Shown: one piece after another, positions 7,079 to 28,736 of the stretch
How positions within the stretch are numbered: the first letter of the stretch is position 1
Layout of the letters: each line of letters starts with the position of its first letter
The notes under the pieces: model-generated
Told to the model about the DNA's origin: nothing
Seen by the model: only the letters and a program-made list of their open reading frames with translations
Databases searched by the model: none
From: a virus
Direction: 5' to 3' (one strand)
Length of the DNA: 57,344 nt
IMG/VR virus record: IMGVR_UViG_3300018410_000010
Location: 1 to 57,344 of that record
Program-made: the position numbers and the translations under genes

Positions 7079-7537
7079 ATGACATTTGACCAATTTGAAG
7101 CTTACTTGTTATCCGAAGCTTGTTATCAAAATCATGACGTCTCTATTATCGATCATCAACAATTGCAGCACTATATAAAAGCAAACGACTTTATAGAATA
7201 CAACGCTTTGATGTCTAGCCATTTAGCTCAAGGTGTAGTCACTATTAAAGTAGAGCAAATGGAGCGCTATTGGGAGTTCGATGATAGAACAATTCATGCT
7301 TTCTATAATCCAAAAAATGGTCCAACATTTCCTGAACATACTGACGATGTAGATGTTATTATCGAATGTAAAGATGGAATTAAAAATATGGAAGTAGACG
7401 GTAAAGAAATTGCATTGCAACCGGGTGATAAGTTGATTATATCAAAGGGAACAATGCACAAAGCATTAAATTATGAAAAGGCATTAATGGCATCACATGG
7501 GATTGGCGACACAGCGTCACTTGAGCGTTTACGTTAA
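7079..7537 (+). CDS. Cupin protein with HTD...H metal site
   Basis: This 152-residue protein is the first gene of the island. The cupin core is at about residues 70-145: FYNPKNGPTFPEHTDDVDVI carries H87 and D89, GIKNMEVDGKEIALQPGDKL is the central turn, and KGTMHKALN gives H127. H-x-D plus a distal His is the two-His-one-carboxylate pattern of non-haem iron enzymes, so it could be an oxygenase, an isomerase-like cupin or a metal-dependent binding protein. The N-terminal 60 residues look helical and are unassigned. Its last 41 bases overlap the start of the first radical SAM gene in another frame, so the two are probably coupled. The ribosome-binding site (AGGATTAG) is ordinary. Confidence 0.75.
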   Translation: MTFDQFEAYLLSEACYQNHDVSIIDHQQLQHYIKANDFIEYNALMSSHLAQGVVTIKVEQMERYWEFDDRTIHAFYNPKNGPTFPEHTDDVDVIIECKDGIKNMEVDGKEIALQPGDKLIISKGTMHKALNYEKALMASHGIGDTASLERLR

Positions 7538-8522
7538 AACGACAGAGACTTGTAATTTAAACTGTTCTCACTGTTTTACTTCTGGCATTAATGGAGCAAA
7601 AATTTATTTTGATCCAGTTCGTACTGCCAATTGGGTGAATCAGCTAGACAGAGATACAATTTTTTACGAATTTCACGGGGGTGAGCCTATGCTTGCCTCC
7701 GTCGAATCTATGCGCAAATTTGTTGAACTTACAAAGGGTGAAGGTGTCGATTATGGTATGACAACAAATTTGGTGTACAAACTTACAGATGAAAAACTTG
7801 AGTTTTTTGACGACGTCTTAAATAAGAGAATTGGAACGTCTTGGGATCCTACTATACGTTTTACAAATGATAGGCAAAGAAAACTATGGGAAGATAACGT
7901 AAAACTGCTAGTTGAACGCGGCTATACAATTAAATGTTTTGTGAGTTTAAGTAAAGATGTAATTAATATGGAACCAAGAGATATTGTTTCTTATATGGAA
8001 TCTCTTGGTGTTAAAGAACTAGATTTTGAGCGTATTACTATGGATGGTAACGCTAAAGGAAAAATGTGGCCATCTAACATTGAATTAGATAAATGGTTTA
8101 TGAGATATCATAATCAAATCGAAAGTAGAGATTCTATTTTTCATGTAATTATGGAAAACATTTACGCTAAATTTGAAGATAATAATCCATCTCGTGGTAC
8201 TTGGTGTAGAGATTGCGAACAAAAACTATTGACAATTAATGCAGATGGTAGTATAGCTGGATGTCCTAATACTGCTCCTCATAAAGCATACGGGCATATC
8301 GATACTCCCGCAAAAGAAGTAATGAAATCTACTGGCCGATGTGATATTATAATTAAAGAATTAAATAGAAATCCTGCATGCTTTTCTTGTCCGGTATTTG
8401 ATGTATGTGGATCAGATTGTCATCAATTAGAGTGGGAAGGTGAAATATGCCCGTCTCCTAAGAGTTTAATGCAGCATCTGAAGGATATAAATAATGTACA
8501 TATACTTAGAATTGGAGCTTAA
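7497..8522 (+). CDS. Radical SAM/SPASM enzyme 1, candidate peptide maturase
   Basis: This 341-residue protein has the radical SAM cluster motif C19xxxC23xxC26 (CNLNCSHC), followed by FHGGEP, the SAM-amine motif. The C-terminal region is a Cys-rich SPASM domain with C237, C240, C256, C295, C298, C304, C308 and C318, including ADGSIAGCP and CFSCPVFDVCGSDC. SPASM enzymes bind extra iron-sulfur clusters and most known ones modify ribosomal peptides or enzymes (sactipeptide, cyclophane and PQQ-type maturases). It lies directly before the gene whose product ends in CHYS repeats, with only two bases between them, so that peptide is its obvious candidate substrate. The ATG at 7497 overlaps the cupin gene; no better start is seen before C19. 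Confidence 0.88.
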   Translation: MGLATQRHLSVYVKTTETCNLNCSHCFTSGINGAKIYFDPVRTANWVNQLDRDTIFYEFHGGEPMLASVESMRKFVELTKGEGVDYGMTTNLVYKLTDEKLEFFDDVLNKRIGTSWDPTIRFTNDRQRKLWEDNVKLLVERGYTIKCFVSLSKDVINMEPRDIVSYMESLGVKELDFERITMDGNAKGKMWPSNIELDKWFMRYHNQIESRDSIFHVIMENIYAKFEDNNPSRGTWCRDCEQKLLTINADGSIAGCPNTAPHKAYGHIDTPAKEVMKSTGRCDIIIKELNRNPACFSCPVFDVCGSDCHQLEWEGEICPSPKSLMQHLKDINNVHILRIGA

Positions 8523-8524
8523 AA

Positions 8525-9106
8525 ATGGTATCTTTAAATAATAATGTTAGAAAGTCTAATGTTATTGACAGATGGGAAGATTATGTCGCTGACGACGCAA
8601 GAGGTGGTCTTGTGTGGGGATTAGACGCTAAGCCTTTCAGTACTGCTCCAGACGATTGGTTTGGAGGAGATATTGCTAGCCCACCTGCAAAAGACTCTTA
8701 CGTTTCAGACAGCAATATTAGTGGAACACTTATTGAGGCAACAGCCACGCGAAACGCGCTAGTGACTGGCACAACACAGTGGACTCATCTAAGAAATATG
8801 CGCGCGGTTCAATTATTTAATTCCCAAGGCACCCAGCAGGGAACATTTGATGACACACAAAAAGCATACCAAGAAACTGGTCAAAGAGTAGATGTTACAG
8901 ATCCTGCCATTCCAACACAAGGGCCTTCAAATAATGGAAATCTCATTACTATCGGCTCAGATTCTGCACAAACTGGTATGGAGCACTATCTTGCTAGACT
9001 TCGCGGCGCTTATAGAACTATTCGAGATGACGCAGTATATAGAGAACAAACTGTCTGCCATTACAGCTGTCACTATAGCTGTCACGGCTCAAGAGGAAGA
9101 AGATAA
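8525..9106 (+). CDS. Candidate RiPP precursor ending in CHYS/CHYS/CHGS repeats
   Basis: This 193-residue protein is of no family I recognise. Residues 1-170 are hydrophilic, without Cys, signal peptide or membrane segment, and contain ARGGLVWGLDAKPF, a Gly/Ser/Thr-rich middle and a helical LARLRGAYRTIRDDAVYR stretch. All its cysteines are in the last 16 residues, CHYSCHYSCHGSRGRR (178-193), three copies of Cys-His-Xaa-Ser followed by a basic end. A long leader and a short repetitive Cys/His/Tyr/Ser tail beside four radical SAM/SPASM genes is the pattern of a ribosomal peptide precursor. The tail resembles the His-Xaa-Ser repeats of HxsA. The start has GGAG 8 bases upstream; the stop overlaps the next ATG as TAATG. 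Alternatives: a metal-binding tail, or overlapping CX3CH haem-type sites. Confidence 0.7.
   Translation: MVSLNNNVRKSNVIDRWEDYVADDARGGLVWGLDAKPFSTAPDDWFGGDIASPPAKDSYVSDSNISGTLIEATATRNALVTGTTQWTHLRNMRAVQLFNSQGTQQGTFDDTQKAYQETGQRVDVTDPAIPTQGPSNNGNLITIGSDSAQTGMEHYLARLRGAYRTIRDDAVYREQTVCHYSCHYSCHGSRGRR
9056..9091 (+). repeat. Three tandem 4-residue CHxS units (candidate core)
   Basis: Twelve-base units encode CHYS, CHYS and CHGS. Codons differ between units (TGC/TGT, CAT/CAC, TAC/TAT, AGC/TCA), so the repeat is kept at the protein level and is not a recent copy at the DNA level. It is followed by codons for RGRR and the stop. Confidence 0.85.
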
Positions 9107-9846
9107 TGAATACAAGAGATACAGTGGCTCCTATTCCTATTGAATTACTTAAGGAGTATTTTAGTGATGATAGTATCGTTTTTAATATTGACTATGAAAA
9201 AAGTCTTTTAAAGGGTGATAAGATTATTACGTATCTAAGCAATTTAGATGTGCCATGCAAACTTACAGGTTTTGATAATGTTTCTTTAGAAGATAAAATG
9301 TCTTTAGTAAGAGATTATATGAATTCAAATCTCATAATTAACAGCAATGAACTTGAAGTATGCGTACTTAAAATATTACATAACGCAGCCATATATGATT
9401 TTGTGCGTCGATATGACGTTCAAGATATTTTAGACGAAAAAGAAATAGAGATTTTTTGCGAAAAAAATAAAGAAATAATTCATAAGTGGCTTGTTATGCT
9501 AGCAAGCTGTTCAGTGTATGCCATATATTCGATTGAAGATTTTAAAGATAAGGTAAAAGAAGAATTTGAAACTATAGATGATTATGATTATTGTGGCGTG
9601 AATTTTGTGCAATTATTTAAATACGAAGATACTCAGGTTTTGTTAACAAATCAAGACTTAGATGTATATTATTTTGAAAAACAATTTAACGAGCCTATGT
9701 TTAAAGGAGCTAATATATTTTATTATTGGCAAACAGAGGAAAACACAATGGCAATTATGGCATGGGGAATATCAACCGGAGAAATAAAACACGGTGATTT
9801 CACCCGTGCTATAGAAAAAGGATACGAAAATGTTTCTGCTTTTTGA
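9106..9846 (+). CDS. Unrecognised acidic helical protein of the island
   Basis: This protein of 246 residues matches no family I know. It is acidic and mostly helical, with ELLKEYFSDD at the start, LEDKMSLVRDYMNSNL, a Glu/Lys-rich EKEIEIFCEKNKEIIHKW around 120, and a beta-like C-terminal third (FVQLFKYEDTQVLL, NIFYYWQTEENTMAIMAWG). There are four scattered Cys with no clear metal motif and no signal peptide. Its ATG overlaps the stop of the candidate precursor, so the two are made together. A role in recognising or presenting the precursor, or in protecting from it, would fit the position, but nothing in the sequence proves it. Confidence 0.6.
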   Translation: MNTRDTVAPIPIELLKEYFSDDSIVFNIDYEKSLLKGDKIITYLSNLDVPCKLTGFDNVSLEDKMSLVRDYMNSNLIINSNELEVCVLKILHNAAIYDFVRRYDVQDILDEKEIEIFCEKNKEIIHKWLVMLASCSVYAIYSIEDFKDKVKEEFETIDDYDYCGVNFVQLFKYEDTQVLLTNQDLDVYYFEKQFNEPMFKGANIFYYWQTEENTMAIMAWGISTGEIKHGDFTRAIEKGYENVSAF

Positions 9847-11002
9847 TAGAGTTTATGTTAAGTACGATTTTTTACTTGACAACAACGTTGATAATTTAAC
9901 TATCAGCCCTAATTTATCAATTCTAAACTGGGATGCGCTTGAGCTGGTGCATTCAAACATGGGTAATGAAATGCACAGGGTGCAGTTATATGAGCAACTA
10001 TTTCCCGGTTTTACATCTCCTGCAATGCCTGAAGGACAAGATCCTTTGCGAGAAATTGATACTCCCTACCCAAATGATCTAGCGTTTTTTCAAGCATTAT
10101 TAGATAAAGGACGCCTTAATATACACGTAGATACTGTTGCTTACGACCAACTCTTTTCTAAATTCTTAAAAATATTCTTTCCAAATATGCCAAGGGAAGT
10201 AGTATGGAAAACTTATAACATATTTAGAACAAATAGTCAACTACTTAATACAACTTCTTTTATATGGGGAGTTGAAGGATATGATGCAGTACAGCAAGCA
10301 AATGCAGATGCATGGGTGCCTAGAACAAAGACTCAATTTTTAGAAGTATTTGATGCAACAACTTTAGATTTACCTGACGCAGATTATAATACATTTAGAA
10401 CTAATGCCAAGCAAAAAATTGGAATTGAATGGATGATTGCAAATAGATTAAACGGCGATCAAACATACGATGTTTCTCTTGGCGAAAAAATGTATAAGCT
10501 TATGTCACAGCGTATTAATGAAGAAGTACAGTTTCTTAAGTCATCGTTATTTAGTAATCTATTTAGAGGATGGTCTCAAACAGTATTAGGATTGTCGTCA
10601 GTTGATGCTAATACAGATTTAATGGATCTTCGAGATACTAATGATAAAACCCGATGGTTATTTGATGATGACGATAAATTCTCATCTCCTGATTATCTTG
10701 CTCGTCACCCAAATATTCAATTTAGTACAATACGTACAAATATTTTGCAAGCGGTTACCGCAAATAATACTCCAATCGAAGAAGCTCTTACAGATGATAT
10801 GATGAATTTCGTATATAATAATACCGCATTACAAAACTTTACAACTGCTGATATTACTACAATATTAGATAATGATAGAAATCATTTAGGTCCATCAGTA
10901 TTTGAATCTGAAGATAGAATTAAGGTAAATTCTTTATTTTTAAGTTACATTTATAAACTTAAAAACAACGATGATAGTGAGTTAGGCTTATTTAGTTTAT
11001 GA
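9830..11002 (+). CDS. Unrecognised 390-aa protein of the island
   Basis: The protein begins MFLLFDRVYVKYDFLLDNN and continues with mostly helical, Asn/Asp-rich sequence (FLKIFFPNMPREVVWKTYNI, FLEVFDATTLDLPDADYNTF, IGIEWMIANRL, EEALTDDMMNFVYNN). It has no cysteine, no P-loop, no radical SAM motif, no signal peptide and no membrane segment. It overlaps the gene before it by 17 bases and the oxygenase after it by 4, so it belongs to the same transcript. Possible roles are a scaffold or a peptide-binding partner for the modification enzymes. I cannot assign it; a structure prediction would be most informative. Confidence 0.6.
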   Translation: MFLLFDRVYVKYDFLLDNNVDNLTISPNLSILNWDALELVHSNMGNEMHRVQLYEQLFPGFTSPAMPEGQDPLREIDTPYPNDLAFFQALLDKGRLNIHVDTVAYDQLFSKFLKIFFPNMPREVVWKTYNIFRTNSQLLNTTSFIWGVEGYDAVQQANADAWVPRTKTQFLEVFDATTLDLPDADYNTFRTNAKQKIGIEWMIANRLNGDQTYDVSLGEKMYKLMSQRINEEVQFLKSSLFSNLFRGWSQTVLGLSSVDANTDLMDLRDTNDKTRWLFDDDDKFSSPDYLARHPNIQFSTIRTNILQAVTANNTPIEEALTDDMMNFVYNNTALQNFTTADITTILDNDRNHLGPSVFESEDRIKVNSLFLSYIYKLKNNDDSELGLFSL

Positions 11003-11541
11003 TTCAAAATTGCTATGAGTCTTCGATATGGATTAAACAATTTGTAAATAGCGATAATTTCAATCAAGACGTTTTAAATACAACTAAAGCAATATCAGCC
11101 ACGGTTCCTGAGCCTGTGGCTGATTATAATATTGACTTGTGGCAAACAGATAATATGCTCACAATTAAGTCTTACTTTACTGAAGGATTTAATGCGCTTT
11201 GTGAGCAGTACGAAGAATCATCTTCTTATAATATAGATTCTATGAATATTATCAATCCTATGAAGTTTGGCGATTTTAAATCATGCCATACTCATGATGT
11301 GATTGATGCCTTTGGTGTATATTATCTAAATGACTCTGAAGAAGGCGGTAAGCTTAGATTATATGATCCACGATTCTTAAATAAAAAATCATTTACCAAA
11401 GAAGCATATATAGAAATAGAACCTAAAACTGGTTTAATGGTTGTAGCTCCTTATTATATTTGGCATGAAGTTACTCCATACCTCGGAAAAGAAACGAGAT
11501 ATAGTTTAGTATGTAATATGGTATTTGATAATGTTGTCTAG
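10999..11541 (+). CDS. Putative 2OG-Fe(II) oxygenase A
   Basis: The C-terminal half of this 180-residue protein is a typical putative 2OG-Fe(II) oxygenase: CHTHD at 96-100 (H97, H99, D100 as iron-ligand candidates), FGVYYLND, GGKLRLYDPR at 116-125, PKTGLMVVAPYYIWHEVTP with H156, and KETRYSLV with R167 as the likely 2-oxoglutarate anchor. The N-terminal 85 residues are a less conserved alpha/beta lead. The ATG overlaps the previous stop by four bases, and radical SAM 2 overlaps its 3-prime end, so the two are coupled. The substrate is unknown; a residue of the island peptide is a candidate. Confidence 0.8.
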   Translation: MIQNCYESSIWIKQFVNSDNFNQDVLNTTKAISATVPEPVADYNIDLWQTDNMLTIKSYFTEGFNALCEQYEESSSYNIDSMNIINPMKFGDFKSCHTHDVIDAFGVYYLNDSEEGGKLRLYDPRFLNKKSFTKEAYIEIEPKTGLMVVAPYYIWHEVTPYLGKETRYSLVCNMVFDNVV

Positions 11542-12547
11542 TATAATTCCCACACAAAACGTAGATATAATAACGAAACAAAATAAAAGATCTCAAGATG
11601 GTGAGATCATTGTTACGTTATTTGAATATTGCAATCTCAGCTGTACGTTTTGTAATCAAGATCATAATAGTCTTGAAGGCATAGATACAATTTTAGAAAA
11701 AATACAGGTTGTACAGAATATTATCCAAAAAACTCCAAAGGACCATTATAGTGTGCACTTTATGGGAGGCGAAGTATTTGCTGATGGTTTGCCTGATACA
11801 GTATTTGATGATTATGTAATCTTATGCCATGAATTAAATACATGGGCGCATCAACAAAATATTAGTCTTGAAATTTGTTTTACAAGTAATATGGTCTTTG
11901 ATAATAGAGAAAGATTAGATAACTTTCTTTATCAATCTAATCCTACGTTACTTACAAGCTTTGATCCAGCAGCAAGATTTAATAAAAAGAATTTTAAAAT
12001 ATTTCAAGATAATGTGAAGCACTACAAAGACTTTATTAAGTCTGCTAATGTGATTATGACTAGACCAACTATAAATAAGTTCATGAATGGCGACGTAGAG
12101 TTTTTTGATTATCTTTACGACAACTTCGATATATATTTTGATTATTATACACCAGAGAAAAATATGAAGTTGTTTATTCCAAATGATATTCAACTGCGCG
12201 ACTTTATGATTTATATGCTTGAGCATTATCCTAAAGCTTTACCATTTGCTGATTATACAAATAAAGTAAAAAAGCAAATGAGCTGCATGGATACAATAAC
12301 AATTATGCCAAACAATTCATTTGGCGCCTGTACTATACTGTTGAATAATTTTAAAAATGTAACGGCAACAAAAATCGAAATGGAACAAGAATGGTTCAAG
12401 CAATATAATTGTCTTGAATGCCCACATTTTCAATACTGTTCTATGGGATGTTTTTTGTCAAACCATATGCAAAGTTTTAGAACACAAGAAGCATGCTGGT
12501 TAAGTGAGGTTTATGATGTGGTCCACTCCAATACAAGTATTCAATAA
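11531..12547 (+). CDS. Radical SAM/SPASM enzyme 2
   Basis: I place the start at the ATG at 11531 (338 residues) rather than the in-frame TTG six bases before. C34xxxC38xxC41 (CNLSCTFC) is the radical SAM cluster motif and FMGGEVF the SAM-amine motif. The C-terminal SPASM region has CMDTITIMPNNSFGACTILL followed by CLECPHFQYCSMGC and a final Cys in EACWLSE. This arrangement fits peptide- or protein-modifying SPASM enzymes. It lies directly after oxygenase A and overlaps oxygenase B. Its sequence differs strongly from radical SAM 1, so it probably catalyses a different step or acts at a different residue. Confidence 0.85.
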   Translation: MLSSIIPTQNVDIITKQNKRSQDGEIIVTLFEYCNLSCTFCNQDHNSLEGIDTILEKIQVVQNIIQKTPKDHYSVHFMGGEVFADGLPDTVFDDYVILCHELNTWAHQQNISLEICFTSNMVFDNRERLDNFLYQSNPTLLTSFDPAARFNKKNFKIFQDNVKHYKDFIKSANVIMTRPTINKFMNGDVEFFDYLYDNFDIYFDYYTPEKNMKLFIPNDIQLRDFMIYMLEHYPKALPFADYTNKVKKQMSCMDTITIMPNNSFGACTILLNNFKNVTATKIEMEQEWFKQYNCLECPHFQYCSMGCFLSNHMQSFRTQEACWLSEVYDVVHSNTSIQ

Positions 12548-12977
12548 TGGATATCAAGATCCATTCGAAAGATATAAAGATTTTTTAAAAGATCATTATA
12601 AGCTTGATTTAAACGATTTTAAATACGACATACGAGAATGGAAAACAACTCCAGGCTCAGGCTATTGGATGTCTCCGCATAATCATGGTCACTCTCATTT
12701 TACTTCAATATATTATAATCACATTTCTGGTGAAGGTGGTGAATTAATTCTTCATGATCCAAGAGTAAACGCAAATAGAGGATTTCCACAAGAGTTTGGA
12801 TCTGAGTTTGCTCCTTACATTATTCAGCCAGAAACTGGAATGACTGTGATATTTCCATCTTACGTTTATCATACAGCTGCGCCATTTAGAGGCATAATAA
12901 GAGAAGCAAGCGTAAGTGAGATACAGCTTGCGAGTATAAGTACTGGGGATTCATATTTAGGAGCAACATCGATATGA
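12516..12977 (+). CDS. Putative 2OG-Fe(II) oxygenase B
   Basis: I choose the second of two adjacent ATGs (12516; 153 residues) because AAGTGAGG ends 6 bases before it; the open frame also has a GTG at 12504 lying inside that site. The motifs are HNHGHSHFTSIYYN (H55, H57), GGELILHDPR at 74-83, QPETGMTVIFPSYVYHTAAP with H119, and IIREASV with R129. HDPRVNANRG closely matches SDPRSNCNRG of the minus-strand oxygenase at 6420-6977, so these two are paralogues. It overlaps radical SAM 2 by 32 bases and the next oxygenase by 4. The substrate is unknown. Confidence 0.8.
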   Translation: MWSTPIQVFNNGYQDPFERYKDFLKDHYKLDLNDFKYDIREWKTTPGSGYWMSPHNHGHSHFTSIYYNHISGEGGELILHDPRVNANRGFPQEFGSEFAPYIIQPETGMTVIFPSYVYHTAAPFRGIIREASVSEIQLASISTGDSYLGATSI

Positions 12978-13609
12978 ATGTAAATCAATTTTATAAGGAC
13001 GGATATGATGAATGGGAAATGCCTTCACATTTAAAAGCTATGATCTGGGGACAACTACTCAGTGAGAATTGGATTGATCATCCGGTTTATAAAGCAATTC
13101 CAGATTGGAGTATTAATCAAGGTGGTGAAGCTCAACTATATCGACAAAAATATGAGCGTAGAGATGAGCAAGAAATTAATCAAAAATCTTTAGAGCTTAT
13201 TCCTGAAACATATAGAATGGTAATTGAAGAGTTATTTAATGAAGGTTATTATCATGAATGGTTTCAAAACGTGTGCGGATATAATTATAAACTTAAATTC
13301 GTCGATGTATGGAATGGCTCAGACGATCTAGGATGGCATTGGGATGGAGTTGAAGATCACGATATTGGATTCTTAATTTACTTTACTGAAGAACAAAACT
13401 GGAAAAAAGAATGGCAATCATACTTATCTCTTGGCGAAAGAGATTGGCAGCAAGAAAATATTGAGCTTAAACACACGGCTTATCCTGCTAATGGTAAGAT
13501 TATATTGTTAAATAATATGAATCCAAGGTTTGTGCATTCTGTTGCAAAACTAACAAATGATAATGTAAATAGATATACAATTAACGCAGGCTTTTCTTTA
13601 TGGAATTAA
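12974..13609 (+). CDS. Putative 2OG-Fe(II) oxygenase C (HxD...H...R)
   Basis: This 211-residue protein carries a full set of 2OG-Fe(II) oxygenase residues: H122-W-D124 in GWHWDGVEDHD, H188 in NPRFVHSV and R200 in NRYTINAGF. The N-terminal 90 residues contain a WGQLLSENW segment and helical sequence. It is more like oxygenase E at 15129-15836 than like A or B: the W-H-x-D-G box, ILLNN, FVH-V and RYTI-A-GF are shared in the same order. It overlaps oxygenase B and radical SAM 3 at its two ends, which suggests coupled translation. It probably hydroxylates a residue or small molecule within the same pathway. Confidence 0.8.
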   Translation: MNVNQFYKDGYDEWEMPSHLKAMIWGQLLSENWIDHPVYKAIPDWSINQGGEAQLYRQKYERRDEQEINQKSLELIPETYRMVIEELFNEGYYHEWFQNVCGYNYKLKFVDVWNGSDDLGWHWDGVEDHDIGFLIYFTEEQNWKKEWQSYLSLGERDWQQENIELKHTAYPANGKIILLNNMNPRFVHSVAKLTNDNVNRYTINAGFSLWN

Positions 13610-14595
13610 TTATTAAACCAACTGAACGTTGCAATTTTAAATGTACTTTTTGTTCAAGTACATCGATTGCTGATGACATAAAAGATCAGTTGGGTTTAAG
13701 CTATATTTTCAAATTTCTAAAAAGATTTCCAAACACCAATACAATTATTGTAAATGGCGGCGATCCATTAATGATGGATCCTAAGTATTATCGAAAATTG
13801 TTAGATCATATTGAAATTTTCAATTATCAAACAACCGTTTCTTTTACTACAAACCTATGGCCTTTTTATAAGAATCCTGAAAAGTGGATAGATATTTTTA
13901 CACATCCACGAATGGGAATTACAACAAGCTTTCATTATGGTGATTCTAGACTTAAAGGTGATTATTCAGTATTTACTGAAGAAGATTTCTGGGCCGTATC
14001 AGATAAAATGTTAGAACTCGTCGGTTATAGACCCGATTTTATTTCAGTAATTGACGAAGCAAACGAAGATACAGCTTTAGATAATGTAAGGCTTGCAAAA
14101 AAGATGGGTGTTGAATGCAAATTAAATTATGCTATGGCATCAGGTATTCAATCTCGCCCATATCAATTATCTAAAATGTATAAATTATATTTAGATGTTT
14201 ATGAAGCTGGTTTAACCGACTGGGAATTTAATACTAAGCAAATGATTAAACGTCTACGCAATGAAGCTTTAATGTGTCCACAAAATAGAAATTGTGATGA
14301 TACAATCAGAGCACTGCAACCTAGCGGCGACTATTACTCATGCGGTGCTATGGGAGACGATAGAGAATATTCTATTGATTTTAATCGAGAAATGAATGGC
14401 GAATTTTTTAGACCATTGCAAGAAGATCTCGAAATACAAACAATGCATGACGGATGCTATACATGTCCAATGTTCCAAATTTGTAATGGATGCAAGAAAA
14501 CAGTCAAAGATACTAAACGACATAATATGGTTGAAGAACACTGCACATTAATGAAACAATTAGCTCCAAGGATTATCGATGCAAATAACGGATAA
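13600..14595 (+). CDS. Radical SAM/SPASM enzyme 3
   Basis: This 331-residue protein has C11xxxC15xxC18 (CNFKCTFC) close to the N-terminus, IIVNGGDPLM as the SAM-amine motif, and a barrel of alternating strands and helices. The C-terminal part holds the extra cluster cysteines: MCPQNRNCDD, LQPSGDYYSCGAMG, then CYTCPMFQICNGC and a last Cys in EEHC. This is a complete SPASM-like set. It follows oxygenase C with a 10-base overlap and precedes oxygenase D with a 17-base overlap. The N-terminal segment before the first Cys is very short, so a peptide-recognition domain is not present at the N-terminus; recognition would need the barrel or a partner protein. Confidence 0.85.
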   Translation: MELIIKPTERCNFKCTFCSSTSIADDIKDQLGLSYIFKFLKRFPNTNTIIVNGGDPLMMDPKYYRKLLDHIEIFNYQTTVSFTTNLWPFYKNPEKWIDIFTHPRMGITTSFHYGDSRLKGDYSVFTEEDFWAVSDKMLELVGYRPDFISVIDEANEDTALDNVRLAKKMGVECKLNYAMASGIQSRPYQLSKMYKLYLDVYEAGLTDWEFNTKQMIKRLRNEALMCPQNRNCDDTIRALQPSGDYYSCGAMGDDREYSIDFNREMNGEFFRPLQEDLEIQTMHDGCYTCPMFQICNGCKKTVKDTKRHNMVEEHCTLMKQLAPRIIDANNG

Positions 14596-15139
14596 TGCCC
14601 TTTCGAATATTGATTATAAGAAAATTCATCATTATTTTACTTCAGAAATACCAATATGGCGTTTTATGCCTGGAATTAATGATAATGTTAACAGTACTAA
14701 TCAGCCTGAATACAAACCGACTTCATGGGGTTTTACATGCAATATTAGCAATACTATAGCGGACATTAAGGATAAGCATGCTTATAGATTATTAAAACCT
14801 CTTATTTTAAATAAAGAAAAATTAGTGAGAATCAGATGCGGATTTATAGTGAATGTAGGTCCGTCTAAACTACATAAACCTCATATTGATCAGCAATCAA
14901 TAGAACATATTACTCAACTTTATTATTTAACAGATAGTGATGCTGTTACAAACGTATTCGAAGAATATGGAAATGACCCAAAATATGATAGTTATCAACC
15001 CGAAGATTTTACTGTTAAATTCCGATGTACACCAAAAAAGAATAGAATGTTTATTTTTGATGGAATGCATTGGCATAGTTCTTCGCCCGTTTTGGGTAAA
15101 GAAGCAAGATTAGTGTTGTCGATTAATTATGCTAAATAG
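14579..15139 (+). CDS. Putative 2OG-Fe(II) oxygenase D
   Basis: In this 186-residue protein the iron and cosubstrate residues are H102-I-D104 in KLHKPHIDQQS, H166 (or H164) in DGMHWHSSSPV and R177 in KEARLVLSINY. This is the pattern of small 2OG-Fe(II) oxygenases that act on aspartyl/histidyl or prolyl-type side chains, though the substrate cannot be read from sequence. AAGGA lies 7 bases before the ATG. It overlaps both neighbours. It is not close to A, B, C or E, so the island holds at least three distinct oxygenase types. Confidence 0.78.
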   Translation: MQITDNALSNIDYKKIHHYFTSEIPIWRFMPGINDNVNSTNQPEYKPTSWGFTCNISNTIADIKDKHAYRLLKPLILNKEKLVRIRCGFIVNVGPSKLHKPHIDQQSIEHITQLYYLTDSDAVTNVFEEYGNDPKYDSYQPEDFTVKFRCTPKKNRMFIFDGMHWHSSSPVLGKEARLVLSINYAK

Positions 15140-15836
15140 AAGTCCAAATTTTAACGATCTATATTTAAAAGGCGCCGATATCGTAGAGGTTGATTCGTCA
15201 TTTAATGCTATGCTTTATGGATTGCTAATGGCTGAAACCTTTGTCGGTGATGGCGCAATTCAAAATCCAATTTGGGATAGAGAATATCATGAAAGAGATT
15301 TAGATGTTTATGTTAAAGGAAAGCAGCCTTATTTAGAATTTTTCCAAGAAGTTGTTAAATCAGAATATTTTGATTATTGGAGGCATGTTTACGGAGATTT
15401 TGATGAAATACATGTAAACATTAATAAGGTAGACCAAACCGGGGAGATGCCTTGGCACTTTGATGGCTTCGATGGAACTTTATTACAAATTCTTTGTTAT
15501 CCAAACATGGATGATTTTGAGGAAAAAGATGGCGGTCATTTTTTAGTTGGTAGACCTGATAATTTATATCGAAACGGAGACCCTATGCCTCATTGGGATC
15601 CTCAATCTTCTTTAGATAATATTTTAACAAAAAACGTAAAAGTTACACAAAAGTATGTACCTAATCGAAATAGTGTGGTAATATTAAATAACAATGATCC
15701 ATCTTTTGTTCATAGAGTAACTCAGTTAAAAGCAGATAAAACTCGATATACAATTATCGCAACGCTTGGCTTTAGTTCTCTTTGGTCTCAAAACAAATTA
15801 AAATTGGGTCATTATAAAGGCACCAAATTATTATGA
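15129..15836 (+). CDS. Putative 2OG-Fe(II) oxygenase E (paralogue of C)
   Basis: This 235-residue protein has H110-F-D112 in MPWHFDGFDG, H195 in PSFVHRV and R206 in TRYTIIATLGF, a complete 2OG-Fe(II) set. Shared blocks with oxygenase C include the Lxx(A/S)E start region, W-H-x-D-G, IL-NN, FVH-V and RYTI-A-GF. Compared with C it has a longer insert between the HxD and distal His (about 130-175, with GGHFLVGRPDNL). It ends with a basic tail (LKLGHYKGTKLL). It overlaps oxygenase D by 11 bases and radical SAM 4 by 4. Together with C it supports a past duplication of an oxygenase plus radical SAM unit. Confidence 0.8.
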   Translation: MLNRSPNFNDLYLKGADIVEVDSSFNAMLYGLLMAETFVGDGAIQNPIWDREYHERDLDVYVKGKQPYLEFFQEVVKSEYFDYWRHVYGDFDEIHVNINKVDQTGEMPWHFDGFDGTLLQILCYPNMDDFEEKDGGHFLVGRPDNLYRNGDPMPHWDPQSSLDNILTKNVKVTQKYVPNRNSVVILNNNDPSFVHRVTQLKADKTRYTIIATLGFSSLWSQNKLKLGHYKGTKLL

Positions 15837-16738
15837 TTATATCTTTGAATCCAACATATCTATGTAATTTTAGATGTGATTTTTGTTATCTCACTTCAGA
15901 ACAATTGGCAGATAAAAATAAAATTGATTTAGAATTGTTAGATCAAAGACTGCTTGAAGTTTCTAATTATCAGCCTATCAGATATATTGATTTATATGGC
16001 GGTGAGATTAGTACTTTAAATGATGAGTATTTTTATGATTTAAAAAGAATTATTCGTAAACATTACCAAGGCGAAATAAACATTGTAACTAATTATGCTT
16101 CTCCAAAAAGCTATATGCATGACAATGATATTTCACTATCTGTATCATTTGATTTTGAAGCTCGTGAAAGATCTGATCTAGTATTTGCGAATATGCTTGT
16201 AAGTCCGGTTCCTATTTCTGTGCTTATTCTTGCTAGCCCTAAAGTCATAAATATGGACGTTGGGCAAATGATTCAACAACTTTCAATGCTTTCAAATATA
16301 CGTTCGGTAGAAATTAAACCGTATTCTACAAACCAAGCAAACGCGCATAACGTAACTCATAAAGACTTCGAATTGTTTGTTGCTGATTGGTTAAACCGCG
16401 ATCTACCGTTTGAGTTTGAAAATAGGCATCGTATTCATGAATCTTTATCTGGAAATTATGACGCATTTAGTAATGACCATGTATATATAAATCCAAACGG
16501 CAAGTTTGCTGTGCTCGAATTTGATAAAAATGATAATGAATACTTTTTAGAATTAGATACTTTTAAAGATTATCTTAAATGGGCAGATGAAGAACCGATA
16601 AAAAATGTCTCTGATATATGTAGAGAATGTAAGTGGTACGGTAAATGTTTGACTGAACATTATAGATATGTTAAAGATTTAGATAATGGCTGTAACGGCT
16701 ATAGAGGACTTTTAGAATGGCAAGAAAAAAAATATTGA
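15833..16738 (+). CDS. Radical SAM enzyme 4 with reduced SPASM-like end
   Basis: This 301-residue protein is the smallest of the four. C11xxxC15xxC18 (CNFRCDFC) and DLYGGEI give the radical SAM core; IVTNYAS and LSVSFDFEA continue the barrel. The C-terminal end keeps only CRECKWYGKC and a later GCNGY, while the upstream position where the others have DGS..GC reads NPNGKFAVLE with no Cys. It may therefore bind only one auxiliary cluster, or share ligands differently. The YxCNFxCxFC opening is close to radical SAM 3, in line with a duplicated unit. It overlaps oxygenase E and the halogenase gene. Confidence 0.8.
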   Translation: MIISLNPTYLCNFRCDFCYLTSEQLADKNKIDLELLDQRLLEVSNYQPIRYIDLYGGEISTLNDEYFYDLKRIIRKHYQGEINIVTNYASPKSYMHDNDISLSVSFDFEARERSDLVFANMLVSPVPISVLILASPKVINMDVGQMIQQLSMLSNIRSVEIKPYSTNQANAHNVTHKDFELFVADWLNRDLPFEFENRHRIHESLSGNYDAFSNDHVYINPNGKFAVLEFDKNDNEYFLELDTFKDYLKWADEEPIKNVSDICRECKWYGKCLTEHYRYVKDLDNGCNGYRGLLEWQEKKY

Positions 16739-18057
16739 TTGTTGGTGGTGGTACTGCGGGTTGGATGACCGCATTAGTTCTTTATCAAAAATACGATGTT
16801 ATGATGATTGAATCACCGAGTGTACCTATTATTGGTGTAGGAGAGTCAACTACAGAAACGGTAATGGATGCTTTGCGGCAAGGTGGTGTTGATATTAATG
16901 ATTTTGTTAAGCATACAAATGCTACACCTAAATATGGTGTAAACTTTTCTAATTGGAGCTCTAAAGATTACTTTCATGCATTCGGAGAAAATTTTTTAGA
17001 AAAAATCTTTGGTGTCGCAGAATGTAATGACTTTTTAGCAGACTGCCATAGATCTGGCAAAGATGTTATATCACTAAGTCCATATACTCATATGGCCCAA
17101 AAAGGAATAGATCCAGTTTTTGGAACAGATGAAGAGTTTTGGTGGGACACAGCTTTACATTGGGAAGCTAGTAAAGTTCCAGAATTTTTTAAAAAATTCC
17201 TTGAAAATAAAATTGTACACATTTACGACCATGTTAATGACGTGCAATCAAACGATTTTGGTATTACAAGTGTAAACGGCCATGTCGCAGATTATTATAT
17301 TGATTGTACTGGCGGTAAAAGAATTTTAAGTAATCATTTAGGAATTAAATGGCAATCTTGGAAAGATGTAACTCCATTAGATTCTGCAATTACATTTAGT
17401 ACTGAAGCAAAGCCAAAAACTTACTATACAAACGCGCATGCTATGAATTGTGGATGGGAATGGTCTATTCCATTACAAGATAAAATGAATCATGGATATG
17501 TATATTCATCTAAACATTGCACACGAGAAGAAGCTCTTGCAGAAATTAAAGCAAAAAGAGGTGATGTTGTAATTAATGGCGACGTTCATTTTGAACCAGG
17601 AGTTTTAGAAACTATAGCTACAAAAAACTTATGCTCAATTGGATTGTCTGCTCATTTTATCGAACCTTTAGAGGCTACAAATATTGAACTTACTGTTATT
17701 ATGGCTAAAGAATTTGATAAAGCTATTGAAAATAATAGTATCGATGAATTAGAAACAAGACTGCAGCAAATTGTAGAAGAAATAAAAAGATTTGTTTTAT
17801 TTCATTATTCTATACCTGAAAAACAAGGACAGTTCTGGAAAGATATATATCAACAGTATACACAAGATGATGTCTTAGAGCGTAAGCAAATTTATCCTTG
17901 GCATCCATTTAATTGGTATTCTGTAGCTCAAGGAATAGGATTTAAAAGAGAATTAGATTTTGTGGATATAGAAGTAGATTATTTAACAACTGAATTTGAA
18001 GTACATAGGAAGGTGGCAGAACTTGAAAGAATGGAAAGTAAGACAAGAAGTCTATAG
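16717..18057 (+). CDS. Flavin-dependent tryptophan-halogenase-like protein
   Basis: This 446-residue protein shows the FAD-binding GGGTAGW at 10-16, IIGVGESTT near 38-46, the equivalent of the catalytic lysine of PrnA at K72 in TPKYGVNF, the halogenase signature WEWSIP at 247-252, and GLSAHFIEPLEATNI at 309-323. These are the diagnostic features of the PrnA/RebH family, which makes HOCl at the flavin and passes chlorine or bromine to an aromatic ring through the lysine. It is about 90 residues shorter than PrnA-type enzymes, mainly in the C-terminal substrate-binding part, so free tryptophan may not be the substrate. Such genes are known from marine phages. No flavin reductase is seen in the window; the host would supply it. 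A peptide Tyr, His or Trp is a possible target. Confidence 0.85.
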   Translation: MARKKILIVGGGTAGWMTALVLYQKYDVMMIESPSVPIIGVGESTTETVMDALRQGGVDINDFVKHTNATPKYGVNFSNWSSKDYFHAFGENFLEKIFGVAECNDFLADCHRSGKDVISLSPYTHMAQKGIDPVFGTDEEFWWDTALHWEASKVPEFFKKFLENKIVHIYDHVNDVQSNDFGITSVNGHVADYYIDCTGGKRILSNHLGIKWQSWKDVTPLDSAITFSTEAKPKTYYTNAHAMNCGWEWSIPLQDKMNHGYVYSSKHCTREEALAEIKAKRGDVVINGDVHFEPGVLETIATKNLCSIGLSAHFIEPLEATNIELTVIMAKEFDKAIENNSIDELETRLQQIVEEIKRFVLFHYSIPEKQGQFWKDIYQQYTQDDVLERKQIYPWHPFNWYSVAQGIGFKRELDFVDIEVDYLTTEFEVHRKVAELERMESKTRSL

Positions 18058-18412
18058 AAGATTAAACGAATCTTTAACCGATGATTTAAATAAAGTAGAT
18101 ATTGTTTGGCGCCCAGAAACAATTGTGGAAGACGCTTTGCGTCATTGGGATGAAGAAGTAGATGAATGGATATATCCTGGTAAATCCTATTTTGTTGCTA
18201 TATGTTATGCGTATTGGATATCAGAAGACTTTGAAGAGGACTTTGAAGAAGTTTTAAATGACCCAGATTTGCTTCCAGGCGATCCATATTTTTTACCATA
18301 CAGCCAAGCAGAAGAAGTATATGACGAAATACTTTCAGCAGTGCGTTATATAGAAGACGGCGCTATGGTATCTGAAGTAAGAAATTATTATGATGAAGAG
18401 ATGCAGTTATGA
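18023..18412 (+). CDS. Unrecognised acidic protein, TTG start
   Basis: The frame is open from an ATG at 17996, but GGAAGGTGG lies 6-7 bases ahead of an in-frame TTG at 18023, which I take as the start (129 residues) and which reduces the overlap with the halogenase gene to 35 bases. The protein is very acidic and helical: KEWKVRQEVYRRLNES, DIVWRPETIVEDALRHWDEEVDEW, then EDFEEDFEEVLND and a Tyr/Glu-rich end. It has no catalytic motif I can name. Coupling with the halogenase suggests an accessory role, for example a partner or inhibitor, but this is only position. Confidence 0.6.
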   Translation: MKEWKVRQEVYRRLNESLTDDLNKVDIVWRPETIVEDALRHWDEEVDEWIYPGKSYFVAICYAYWISEDFEEDFEEVLNDPDLLPGDPYFLPYSQAEEVYDEILSAVRYIEDGAMVSEVRNYYDEEMQL

Positions 18413-18963: not shown

Positions 18964-19525
18964 ATCAAACAAAACAATCGCAGTGGTAGGCGCGCATGGT
19001 GTCGGTAAAAACACTATTTGTATTAAACTTTTAGAACGCGAAAAATTTAAAGAGCGTGGTGTGAATGTCACGTATATGCCAGAAACAGTTCGCTCTACTA
19101 TGTTTATGACCGGTGAAATTTTAGAAAAAGAAATAGGCGGTAATTATTATTCTTGTAGCTGGTTGTATCATAGGCATTGGAGTCAAATGCTAGAACATCA
19201 ATATAGTTGTGATGTTTTTATTACTAAAAGACTTCCTCTAGATTATGTTGTATTTAATGAATGCGCATTTAAGCTTGGATTAATTGACAGAATGCTAGAT
19301 CCTCAATATAAAGAATTAGCAGTAATGCAAGCAGCTGATTTTGATGAAGTGTACTTTGTACGCCATAATCCAGAATATGAATTAGTAGAAGATAGTGTAA
19401 GAAAAGGGGCTGCAGCCAGTTCTGAACTACAACCCCTTTGGGATAAACGTTATAAAGAAATTATAGATCACTGGAATATTCCTGTTATTGAAGGAACATG
19501 CGGCGAACTATTAGAGTTATTTTAA
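18956..19525 (+). CDS. P-loop NTPase / nucleotide-kinase-like protein (AAA_28/NadR-like), TTG start
   Basis: The start is TTG at 18956, with AAGGAGG 6 bases upstream; an ATG at 18938 would place that site inside the gene. The 189-residue product begins with a beta strand and a P-loop, TIAVVGAHGVGKNT, then PETVRSTMFM, a FITKRLPLDYVVFN segment that fits a Walker B / DRGxxD-like region, and RHNPEYELVEDSVRKG near the end, as in NadR-type or AAA_28 kinases. The usual Ser/Thr after GK is Asn here with Thr one place later, an unusual P-loop. It is the last gene of the island and meets the fibre gene end-to-end, overlapping by four bases. It may phosphorylate a nucleotide-like cofactor; the substrate is unknown. 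Confidence 0.65.
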   Translation: MAKSNKTIAVVGAHGVGKNTICIKLLEREKFKERGVNVTYMPETVRSTMFMTGEILEKEIGGNYYSCSWLYHRHWSQMLEHQYSCDVFITKRLPLDYVVFNECAFKLGLIDRMLDPQYKELAVMQAADFDEVYFVRHNPEYELVEDSVRKGAAASSELQPLWDKRYKEIIDHWNIPVIEGTCGELLELF

Positions 19526-22500
19526 ACTTTAACTTCTACTTCTCCGTCTTTAGAATCACATAGAGCAATACCAAGAATTTCATGGCTTCCAATACCAGAA
19601 GTTCCGTATGGTACACCTTTACATTTACCAACGGCTTCTGGATCCGGAATTAGCCACATACCTTTTTTGACTGCGCCATCTTCACCAGATACAAATGCTG
19701 GAATACGACCTTTTAAAGCAATAAATGGATTCAATTTTGATTTTTTAGATTTCATATTCTCGATGCCCATGTCATTCATTTTGACACCAGGATTAGTCGA
19801 GATGATACCAGCTACTGGCAAACCTTCACGCCAAACTGTAATCTCAGAATCACCATCTAAATCGATACCCATTAAAGTACCTGGCTCATAGATTTCATCA
19901 GCAGTATAACGTTCCGCCAAGTCAGCCCAGCGAGCTGATGTTGCAGTACCATGATAAACACCATCATTTGCAACATAAGATTTGTTCGACCCATTTACGC
20001 GGAATTGGCAAATACGGTTAGAGTTGCCGCCGACTTCCATATAGAAACGGTTTGAGTGATATTCAAGCTTACCAACATCGTTACCAACGTTACCAGTCCA
20101 GGTTTCGTCACCGCCCTCTTCAAATCTCCAAGTTGGTGAATATCCGTCTTCCTGGCGATATCGTAATTTCCAAGAGCCGGCTCTATTAAGGAAACCACCC
20201 CATGCTCCAGAACCATACAACCACATACGAATAGTACCATCGTAATTTGACCTCATTCTTATACTGATACTTGAACTGTTGTTATTGCCGGTCACAGCCC
20301 AATACTGGGCTTGCTCTGAATAGAAGTGACAACCAGTTGCTTGGTTATATAAACCCTCATCTTCATTATCATTACGGAACCAGTTACGGGCGTAGAACTC
20401 GTTAGCTCTTACAGAAGTAGCAAAGTTAGAAGCACTAGATGGATCACAGTAGTAACCAGTATTATCTGTATCATAATAGATATTAGCATACATTGCAGCG
20501 TTGTTATTATTATTAACACCAAGCACTGGTATTGTACGCCATGATCTCCAACCAGACCAAGAAGAACGGAATCTCAAGTTCTCAATTGGACCACCAACCA
20601 TCTGCCAACCATAACCAGAAGTATTAGAGTTACGATAGTGGTATGCCTGACAACCAACCCAGTGAGATGTACCTGAAGGCTGGTTGTTTGGGTTTCCCCA
20701 AGAATCAATAAATCCTGAACCCCATGTACCTACGACGTTCATATCCTGGGTGCCCCAGCCCATAGCACCAGTCCAATAGTTTGTATCACCAGTCTGTCTT
20801 GGGCGTGCTCTGTAATACTCACCTGAGTTTCTTGTATGACCTGGCAATGCCATGTAAGCCATTGTACGGTTGTTCACACCTAAGAAACGAGAGCTGTTTG
20901 TGGAAGCCGGATTCATGTAATAACCAGTATCATTTGAGTCATAGAAGATCGGCGCTCTTAACGATGAACCAGCTTGTAGGTTATTGTTAACATAAACGTT
21001 ACTGCCACCAAGTGCATCAGAAGCGTTGTTAATCGACATAACCTGACCAGACATATTATAGTCAGTATAGAAACGCATACCATTGTAAGAAGCGTTTGCA
21101 CCAAACTTAAGACCAGTGTGGAATGCAATCCTTAGATCTGGATACGGATTAGACCAACCACCTCCTTCACGATAGATAGCATATGCTGTAGATCTATCAC
21201 TTGACCAGTAAATACCAAAGCTGTCATTTGAAGAAACTGAGCCGTCGTTTGTAAAGTAGTTTGCGCGTACAAGGTTGAGTCTTGATGTACTGTTAGGATC
21301 TATATAGTAGTTAGTATCATTTGTATCGTACATAATTGGAGCGTAGAAGTTATGATACGAACGTACTTCACTATTAGTACATCTAAGCGCCCAACCGTCA
21401 TCTTGAGATAGAATACCAATCTGGTTGCTGTTATTAGCATAGAATCTACCACGTCTGTTGTTACCAGATGTGTGCATATCAATACTGACTACGTTTGCAG
21501 TAGAGTACGCTCTCCAACGCTCAGTAGAAGTTGCATACCAATGCATCGCGTATGCGGTATTGTATAGACCTCTACCACCAGTATCGTTACGGAACCAACC
21601 ATCGTTATAAATTTCACCACGGTTATCAATCGTATTCATTACAGATGTTGAAGCAAAGTCACCATAATAGTTACCGTCGTTGCTATCTGTAAATCTTTGA
21701 GCGTAATGAGTACCTGTTGTGAATGTATTACCATCACCACGAATCAAGAAGTTTCTATCACCGCTTAGACCACCATCATAGAATGCGATGTCTTCGCCAC
21801 CAGATGTAGCAATCTTTAAGTGAGCATCGTTAGTGTCTGTAGCTTGAATATATCCACGAAGGTTACCATTTGAAGTATATAATCTGAGTTCGTTACCACC
21901 ATTAATACGTAGCTGGTTAATTTGTGATGTACCACCTGGATTCATATAACGAGCTGTGTTATCTTCATCATAGTAAATAGCAGCATACAAATCGTTACCG
22001 CCACCATCTGGGTTAACATCATATAACGCAACGTTGCGATAGTTAGAATACGCAGTTCCTGAGTTCCAAGACTGCTGCCATAGACGCATTCCATGACCAG
22101 ATTTCTTGAACATAAGCAAGTTATCTGATCCACCTGAAGAATCAGTGTATGATCTTAAGTGTAAGTAATCGGCCCAAGGTGATGTGTTATTATTAGCCCA
22201 TGATGTGAAACCAAAACGCAAATAACCAGATGGATCTTCGTTTGGTTCAATAATACGATTATCTCTACGTAGCATCCGTTCAGAGTAACCATTTACACTA
22301 CCCTGAATTACGTTATCAACCTGTAAAGTTAATAGACGTGATGTACCATTACCATCAATACGATATGTTGTATTGTTTGAATCATAGAAGATTGGTGCAC
22401 GGTAAGAACCACGAGCCTCCATATATCCTGATGCTGTTCTTTCTTCCCATGTGCCATTATAATAAATGTATACGCGAGCATTACGCTCCATGTACAATTG

Positions 22501-25500
22501 CCATTCATTATCTGGAGATTTTAAGCCCCAGTGATTATCGTCATCGAAGTAAATACGTCCACAGTTTGTAGAGTTAGAATCACGGAAGATAACCTCGCCG
22601 TGATCAGAGTTATTTGAACGAATACTTAACGTGTCAGCGTCGTCATCGTAAATATCCCAACCTGAGTTAAACTCAATACGACTAAGACTCGATATAACAG
22701 ACATTTGAGATGTGCCTGCCGGATTTGTATAATAATTCGTGTCATCATTATCATACACAATTGGTGTTCTGATTTCATTTCTTGCTTCAACATATCTTGT
22801 GCGAAGACCTGACGCAACAATACCCGCAGAGTTTGTACTATCAGGATCAATTTTATCGCCGTGGAACGTAAACCAAGCGCCCATTTGACGACCAGTCACC
22901 GTATAAGCGCTGTTGGTGTCTGAGTGCTGAATATAGTTATCGTCTCCGCTGCCGTCATTTAAGAATACAATTCTTGGAGTAACAACTTTAGAGGTTGCAA
23001 AAATAGTTCTTGTTGAAATATCTGGGTCACCGCCGTCACTAAAGCTAGTGTTTGTACCCGCACCGACATGTAATTTATTGAATACAGATGTACTCGCTGG
23101 GTCTGCGTAGTAGTTTGCATCATTTGTGTCATAGAAACGCTGAGCTCGCATGTAACGTTCAGCATAAAGATCGCCACTTGTGTTCAGCCACATACGGCGA
23201 GTACCGTTACCAGACCCTGAAGTAAATTGTAGATTACCGCCTGCGTTTGTTTGGTTATCTGGCGATTCATAAATCTGCCATAGATTACCACCTTCCCACT
23301 TAATACCTTCGTTAACGCCAGGATCGTTAAACGTCAAGTTGTTTAGGTTTATAATAGAACCATTATTCCAATTCCAAGAACCTTGAACATTACCGCCAGA
23401 GTTTGGATTCATAAAGCGAGCAGTATTATCGCGATCTCTGAAGTTGCTTGCATCAACTGTACTCAGTTTAGATGTTGATGCTGGATCTAGATAGTAGTTG
23501 ACATCATTTGAATCATAATAGATCGGCGAGTATATAGCCTGATCTGTACGAATACGCTGCTGAACATTTGATCTTGTCAAGATTGGAGCTGTAAATTCTC
23601 TTAATGCACCACCACTGTTGTAGTTCATTAAGATACGAATTCTTACATATCTACAGGCTGCTCCGTCTGAGCCGGAATAAACAGTGTGGGTTGTTGGAAT
23701 AGTTGTAAAGCCCGAATATTTAGTCCAAGAAGTACTCGTTAAATTAGAACCGCCTGCCACAAAATATGTCGTACCTGTGTTACCAGCGATTGGTCTTTTA
23801 TCTTTGTCAAATCTTTCAACACCATAGTAGAACAAGCCGCCTGAACCAGATACATAACGTACCCACATTTCACCGTAAATTTCTTCACCTGGCTCTACTT
23901 CGATATAATCAGAATAGAAAGTACGATAGCCAGATGTTCTTAAAACATATGAACTCGATCCTGGCGCGTTCGTTGATTTAACATATTCTGATGTATTACT
24001 AGTTGCGTTGTCTTCAGCACCTTGCAGAGATTTGATTGCTCGTTTTTCCCAATATAAGTTACCATCGAATAGTTTCTGTTCTGATGTACCAGCACCATAA
24101 GATTTTAATAGTGGGAATGGTTCGTTACCAGTACCAATGTTAAAGCTCTCGGCAGTCATCTCACCTTCAAGGTTAGCGTTACCGTCTTCTTTAACCCAAA
24201 ACTTATCGCCAATACCATTAAAGTGTAAGATAAATGCTGAAATACCGTCTTTATTATCGTGAGCAAGCCAAGGATAGTTAGCATCGGCCCCGCTATAACG
24301 CATACCGATTAAGTATCTGCTATTATGCCAAATGCCGAGAGGATACGTTGTCGATCCAGTTAAGTTACCCTGATTACCAAGCTCAAGAGTTTTAAGCTTA
24401 GAACGATCTGCAAAATTACCAAAGTAGGTTGTATCGTTGTAATCATAGAATATAGGTGAACGCATACTATTTGGTGCATAACCATAACCATTTTCAGCAC
24501 CAATCTGATGCACACCGTTTGCATACAAGCGAGTAAAGTTATTATCTTGAGCGTATAGCGACCATTCATTACGTGTATCATTATAGAGACCCATATTGCT
24601 AGAGCCATTAGCCATGAATACCCAATCATCATAGATTGCATATCCACCCCAGCCACCTTTTTGGCCTTGAACTCTAATTGAGCCATAGTCACCACTTGGC
24701 GAGTCAATAATATATGTAGAGCCGTCAACTTGGAATTGATTTGCTCTTACGACATTCATAATAGAAGTAGATGCAAAATCACCGTAATAACTAGTATTAT
24801 TTGAGTCGTAGAATCTTGGCGCTCTAAAGTCACCACGAGCTTCTACGTGGCCGCCACTTCTAGGACCACGCATTGCCCAGTTGCCGTTGACACTGTTGTC
24901 GTGTCCAATCAATCCCCATGTGCCGTTTGATAGGCCGTTTAGAGTTACGGGCTGTCCGCTGGCAGATGTTACACTAGCAGAACCACCCATGTATGCAAGA
25001 GACATGCCATAGCGATCCATTGAAGCAGTAGTCGAGTTATGTTCTGCAAAGAAGATACGAGCAGACCCTTCACCGTCTGTACCTGTATTACCTTCGATAG
25101 ATAACCAACGACCTTTAGTATTTGTACCGTTGCCCGGATTACCAAAAGTAATTCCGTTCATTCTTGAGAATACTGCTGGGTTCGTATAGTAGAAAGTATC
25201 GTTACTATCGTAGTAAGCAGGCGCATAAACGTTTTGAGCAAAGTCTGCCGAGTTGCCATCGAGGTTCATTACCTCATTACCAGCAACAAATGCTTTTATA
25301 ATGTTATTGCCTGGGAATCCAAGGTACGTATTCGTATTACCTCTATGACGGATATAGTCATCGATATCAACTGTGTTCAACTGCGAGTCTGCGCCTGGAT
25401 CTAAGTAATAGCTCGTGCTGTCGCTGTCATAATAGCGAGGTGCATATACATTTACACTAAAGTCAGCAGAATCTGTATCGATGCTGAGCTTGTTTGTTCC

Positions 25501-28695: not shown

Positions 28696-28736
28696 TCGGT
28701 TCACTCTCCCCAGTTAGGCATTTGTCGTATTTTGTA

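Follow-up and report, generated by a model that had tools for sequence, protein, structure and literature searches.

What is a protein with three Cys-His-x-Ser units at its extreme C terminus doing in a phage genome, directly downstream of a gene for a radical SAM/SPASM enzyme? The window in which this gene pair lies, that is, the whole stretch of DNA analysed here (57,344 nucleotides, positions 1 to 57,344 of the IMG/VR virus record IMGVR_UViG_3300018410_000010), had been read in a first-pass annotation as encoding the precursor of a new phage RiPP-like product. The features on which the argument draws are the following:

7079..7537, plus strand: cupin/JmjC_2-like protein with an HxD...H motif, putative oxygenase (JmjC_2 24.8 bits, cut-off 22)
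7497..8522, plus strand: rSAM1, radical SAM/SPASM enzyme, proposed tail modifier (CxxxCxxC plus 8 further Cys)
8525..9106, plus strand: CHxS protein, 193 aa, predicted folded body with an exposed C-terminal core tail; proposed substrate
9056..9103, plus strand: core tail CHYSCHYSCHGSRGRR of the CHxS protein
9106..9846, plus strand: partner A (phrog_20767), found in both layouts of the cluster, in cultured phages and in bacteria
9830..11002, plus strand: partner B, a protein kept in most single-copy clusters
10999..11541, plus strand: 2OG-Fe(II) oxygenase
11525..12547, plus strand: rSAM2, CNLSCTFCNQDH subfamily
12504..12977, plus strand: 2OG-Fe(II) oxygenase
12974..13609, plus strand: 2OG-Fe(II) oxygenase
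13600..14595, plus strand: rSAM3, CNFKCTFCSS subfamily
14579..15139, plus strand: 2OG-Fe(II) oxygenase-like protein, just under the Pfam cut-off
15129..15836, plus strand: 2OG-Fe(II) oxygenase
15833..16738, plus strand: rSAM4, PTYLCNFRCDFCYL subfamily
16717..18057, plus strand: tryptophan-halogenase family protein (PF04820, 246 bits)
18026..18412, plus strand: small protein recurring in clusters (..IYPAKSYAVAI.. in relatives)
19522..28704, minus strand: 3060-aa fibre protein; its C-terminal domain recurs in the fibre gene that precedes most CHxS clusters

All the cysteines of the CHxS protein lie inside the tail CHYSCHYSCHGSRGRR, with none before it. The tail is encoded as TGC CAT TAC AGC, TGT CAC TAT AGC and TGT CAC GGC TCA, followed by AGA GGA AGA AGA and the stop codon, the codon choice differing from unit to unit, and the rSAM1 gene (7497-8522) stops 2 nt ahead of the CHxS ATG. 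Thus, the first-pass annotation was accurate in describing a 193-residue protein with no other cysteines, with codons that differ between units, and with a radical SAM/SPASM gene directly upstream. The protein has no Pfam or NCBIfam family match, and phrog_35144 matches its final 27 residues. Its body is predicted to be ordered with fair confidence (pLDDT 82.5, pTM 0.77), and the tail is modelled with low confidence (pLDDT around 52). A search of the PDB with the body gave no fold match at E <= 0.001, and a known virion or adhesin fold was rejected on this ground. Matches in BFVD include the CHxS protein of the Agrobacterium phage Atu_ph07 and a 178-aa protein with the same length as the CHxS protein of the Pseudomonas phage DT01. 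Myoviridae sp. ctijX18 contributes three large proteins with the CHxS body fold (504-660 aa; TM score about 0.5; BFVD A0A8S5USJ7, A0A8S5USJ8 and A0A8S5USV2).

The putative modifying enzyme, rSAM1, scores 27.4 bits against the SPASM model TIGR04085 (cut-off 27), which places it among the SPASM peptide maturases, and its CxxxCxxC motif and eight further cysteines are conserved across 125 orthologues. Its best NCBIfam scores are to the peptide maturases DarW, DarE, HxsB, PapB and FxsB, and to a sulfatase maturase. None of these relationships reaches membership: rSAM1 gives 45 and 46 bits against DarE and DarW (cut-off 650), and it stays below the cut-offs of the triceptide maturases FxsB (33 bits, cut-off 370), XyeB (19 bits, cut-off 450) and YhhB (32 bits, cut-off 445). 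The HxsA/HxsB/HxsC system, which the first-pass annotation had brought into play, likewise combines His-Xaa-Ser repeats with neighbouring radical-SAM maturases. Membership in it was rejected, as the precursor has no NCBIfam match, rSAM1 gives 41 bits where HxsB requires 370, and the window proteins reach neither the HxsB and HxsC equivalog cut-offs nor the HxsA model. Unlike those of HxsA, the units here are Cys-His-x-Ser, allow Asn or Ala in the last position, and are followed by an RGRR end. No NCBIfam maturase model of any named family reaches its cut-off with an enzyme of the CHxS system and, judged by sequence, the system fits no named maturase or precursor family tested. What is found is a precursor made on the ribosome whose core region is conserved and whose gene stands next to those of tailoring enzymes, as is characteristic of RiPPs. 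The RiPP-like part of the original proposal is kept, while the notion of a short peptide gives way to a folded protein of 124-309 aa in a tail-fibre setting.

The association between tail and enzyme was followed in both directions. A body-only search, based on an alignment of CHxS bodies with the tail removed, returned 80 loci, three of them cut by contig ends; the tail was kept by all 77 complete homologues, and the rSAM1 motif was found upstream in 71 of the 73 loci with enough upstream sequence. The two loci without the motif (L373 and L374) belong to the contigs of L171 and L172, where an rSAM1 orthologue lies directly 5' of a tail. Homologues lacking the tail or a radical SAM neighbour, named beforehand as the finding that would speak against a phage-encoded RiPP-like substrate tied to radical SAM/SPASM enzymes, did not appear, and that claim has held. 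In the reverse direction, a tail was present within the fetched stretch at 28 of 56 rSAM1 loci. Among the other 28, ten have the tail elsewhere on the contig, two carry a Phe variant of it, and at least two end near rSAM1, the remainder being mostly short fragments. This leaves about 16 of the 56 rSAM1 contigs without any tail, again mostly short fragments, and these were counted against the operon reading. Searches of the phage collection with rSAM1, with partner A and with rSAM2 all lead to one set of seven records. Conservation marks the tail, rSAM1 and partner A as one unit, most often found beside a fibre gene.

The CHxS tail occurs on phage contigs, in several jumbo phages that have been cultured and in MAGs of Bdellovibrionota. 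The family pattern is CH-x-[S/N/A] three times, then R-[G/S]-R-R, and 196 distinct tails were collected. In IMG/VR, the corresponding DNA pattern matches more than 119 stretches, nearly all of them with exactly 16 residues from the first Cys to the stop, and a reversed control pattern gave no matches in any record checked; the tail thus occurs far above chance. The same pattern has about a dozen true cases in a set of 84,980 species genomes from bacteria and archaea. A tblastn search of annotated phages identifies as carriers the jumbo phages DT01 (Pseudomonas), Atu_ph07 (Agrobacterium) and FLC6, FLC8 and SURPRISE13 (Burkholderia); FLC6 and its kin share 70% identity with the CHxS protein of the window over the last 27 residues only. 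The Sinorhizobium phage Phosso carries the tail as well. In DT01, Atu_ph07, FLC6 and Phosso, the CHxS gene lies directly 3' of a radical SAM gene.

The 129 distinct CHxS proteins range from 124 to 309 residues, with cysteines confined to the tail in 95 of them, and their bodies fall into two large and seven small similarity groups with no blastp link between groups. The tail behaves very differently. None of its three Cys, three His and three Arg varies among the 196 distinct tails, a set selected by a pattern that already specified most of these residues. The two synonymous codons for Cys, and likewise those for His, are used about equally at these invariant positions, which indicates selection on the peptide and not on the DNA. 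The x residue of each unit is free. Two positions after the His, Ser is the most frequent residue, followed by Asn and Ala, with single cases of Asp, Val and Lys, two of Gln, and never Gly or Thr, a sampling that is partly set by the search patterns used. Two extra scans that opened this position in the middle unit, one to all G-starting codons and the other to AHN codons, recovered real tails with only Ala, Val or Asn there. The sequences demonstrate a fast-changing, predicted globular body that carries an exposed 16-residue tail (three CHxS units plus RGRR) under extreme purifying selection.

Two kinds of departure from the standard tail are known. At L169:7007-7699 and L170:7007-7699, the tail is CHYSCFTSSCHFSRGRR, in which the middle His is replaced by Phe and one Ser is inserted. 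This variant, CHYS-CFTS-S-CHFS-RGRR, was found via rSAM1 and is thus independent of the tail pattern. A scan with T-D-B codons for the middle His at fixed spacing gave chance matches only; the Phe variant carries an additional Ser. In addition, the CHxS ORF of L281 and that at L122:7832-8515 run many CHxS units in a row, those of L281 being joined by VPV linkers, which fits what would be expected of an iterative core.

The conserved operon comprises the cupin/JmjC-like protein, rSAM1, the CHxS protein, partner A, up to three more radical-SAM subfamilies and 2OG oxygenases. The four radical-SAM subfamilies have distinct motifs and recur in phages and bacteria. Two layouts are found. In layout I, that of the window and the cultured phages, the cupin/JmjC-like gene is followed by rSAM1, the CHxS protein, partner A, often partner B, and rSAM2, and continues with 2OG oxygenases, rSAM3 and rSAM4. 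In layout II, a fibre gene is directly followed by a tandem pair of genes for CHxS proteins some 127 residues long. Next comes a radical-SAM-like gene of a different type, and partner A, the cupin and rSAM1 lie further along. Both the tandem-pair and the single-copy layouts occur together on the 151-kb contig IMGVR_UViG_3300025138_000014 (L064 and L078). Partner A is modelled confidently (pLDDT 92.6), and has no fold match in the PDB; an RRE-like role for it was considered and rejected for want of such a match despite the confident model. The tryptophan halogenase (16717-18057) lies inside the radical-SAM/2OG operon and may halogenate the product. It is considered accessory since it is present in only three related loci, and the variation of halogenase and 2OG sets among phages suggests that the end products may differ.

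The fibre setting was assessed with an HMM built by iterative search from the C-terminal domain of the 3060-residue fibre of the window, a domain that matches the tail fiber family phrog_19602 and has a weak match, slightly below the cut-off, to Peptidase_G2. Upstream sequence of 3 kb or more is available for 91 distinct CHxS loci. At 59 of them, the nearest 3 kb upstream contain the end of a same-strand ORF carrying the domain, directly adjacent in 19 cases, and the other 32 have no such ORF in that interval. These 32 weigh against a link to the fibre, as does the window itself, whose fibre with the domain is encoded on the other strand, some 10 kb from the CHxS cluster. Two more tail-fibre genes with S74 chaperone domains, one of them with collagen-like repeats, are found in the window at 35386-39957 and 53758-54945 (minus strand). 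The gp38 adhesin of T-even phages is small and fast-evolving, and its gene lies directly downstream of a fibre gene. The CHxS gene of layout II resembles it in position, and gp38 is not known to have a modification operon. The CHxS protein of Atu_ph07 is gp170, and the report on this phage defines by mass spectrometry one virion cluster as CDS 170-215 (PMC6102473); from its place at the boundary of this cluster, we infer that gp170 would be part of the virion.

Taken together, these data suggest that the operon probably makes and modifies a small fibre-associated protein, with radical-SAM enzymes cross-linking the H-x-S units of a tail that is retained. Both the substrate status of the CHxS protein and its link to the fibre are deduced from conservation, and analogies point to the tail-acting enzyme and the type of bond. 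Under this proposal, rSAM1 and its sister radical-SAM enzymes would act on the tail, joining the ring of His (once Phe) at position i to the beta-carbon of residue i+2 (Ser, Asn or Ala), and the cupin and 2OG oxygenases would add hydroxylations. The finished tail would stay on the CHxS protein, which would sit on or near the attachment fibre and help to bind the host surface, its position resembling that of T-even gp38. The folded body, and the fact that Pfam annotation identified no protease or exporter among the annotated genes of the window cluster, indicate that the tail probably stays attached; combined with the association with fibres, this points to an attachment protein that carries a modification.

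The chemistry is modelled on the triceptides, or three-residue cyclophane RiPPs (XncB, OscB, MscB, HaaB, YhhB), which are made by enzymes of the SPASM radical-SAM family, to which rSAM1 also belongs, on repeated core units of the form aromatic-x-residue, including His-x-Ala and Phe-x-Ser, like the CHxS tail. Their enzymes join His C2 to the C-beta of Ala or Arg, Phe C4 to the C-beta of Ser or Asn, and Trp to Asn, Asp or Arg (PMC11002830). The aromatic residue at i, the Ser, Asn or Ala at i+2 and the replacement of His by Phe are as in triceptides, so that ring-to-C-beta cross-links in all three units are the favoured, if tentative, choice. Unlike in triceptides, the substrate would be a folded protein of 124-309 aa, Cys opens each unit, as many as four radical-SAM subfamilies are present, and the setting is that of a phage fibre. 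The darobactin-type DarE/DarW, among the best-scoring relatives of rSAM1, have a different core motif.

Other explanations have to be weighed against that of a retained, cross-linked tail. The product could be a released RiPP, the tail being modified, cut off, and exported or freed at lysis as an antimicrobial or signal. The core-like C-terminal repeats, the RiPP-type maturases and the multi-unit precursors of L281 and L122 agree with this, but it is made improbable by the lack of an identified protease or exporter among the annotated genes of the window cluster, by a body predicted to be a folded domain, by the consistent placement beside fibre genes and by the hint from the Atu_ph07 virion cluster. 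An equally unlikely alternative is that the Cys/His tail, with or without enzymatic change, charges the tip of the fibre with iron, copper or zinc, at a site that the radical-SAM enzymes may build. Three invariant Cys-His pairs per tail and the fibre setting would suit a metal site; however, four radical-SAM subfamilies are needless for an unmodified one, Phe replaces one middle His, and metal binding alone explains neither the invariant Arg nor the restriction to Ser, Asn and Ala. Least probable is a sorting tag recognised by a partner protein, fibre chaperone or enzyme, with the radical-SAM enzymes acting on some other molecule, for example the fibre or a small metabolite. Sorting signals typically take the form of a short, conserved C terminus on otherwise divergent proteins, and the terminal Arg residues are invariant, but usually only one or two proteins per locus are tagged, adjoining the radical-SAM gene, some tails are multi-unit, and the i+2 pattern fits known cross-link acceptors.

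The cross-linked attachment protein would not be restricted to phages. Within one order of predatory-type bacteria (that of G036), five genomes out of 129 have the cluster. The other genes on its contigs read, from their translations, as bacterial, acyl-CoA dehydrogenase and ABC-F among them, and a Peptidase_S74-type fibre-like gene lies nearby in four of the five, one of them with a recognised prepilin motif. The system is phage-encoded, as the first-pass annotation had it, and extends beyond phages to the CHxS clusters of bacterial MAGs. On six bacterial MAG contigs (L311-L314, L320 and L321), the operon stands among bacterial-looking genes. The accessible text of PMC10769870 assigns the S74 fibres of Bdellovibrio to the mosaic adhesive trimer (MAT) family, phage-fibre-like proteins of prey recognition with one member specific for prey surface glycans, and S74 genes lie near CHxS in related MAGs; the same text reports no radical-SAM/CHxS partner for them. 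No description of a CHxS/radical-SAM fibre system was found in the papers searched; in those on FLC6 and S13, the genes appear only as names or among the accessory proteins.

There is about an even chance that phages and some Bdellovibrio-like bacteria share a multi-radical-SAM operon that builds a cross-linked, non-standard tip rich in Cys and His permanently on an attachment-fibre protein, outside the described RiPP and fibre classes, and viral fibre components modified in this way may form a category in themselves. If so, tailed phages would be widely equipped with a biosynthetic route to unusual chemistry in their own proteins, of which some 200 distinct sequences were collected here. New radical-SAM chemistry could be drawn from this source, with adsorption as a natural and genetically tractable readout. 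It would also account for the radical-SAM, cupin and 2OG clusters listed as accessory in jumbo phages, and would suggest a chemical grip on bacterial cells common to phages and predatory bacteria.

Besides the operon, the window holds at 2498-5561 (minus strand) nucleotidyltransferase-like and FkbM methyltransferase-like genes together with unassigned ones. These are also kept near related clusters (L231 and, partly, L056) and are possibly glycan- or capsule-related.
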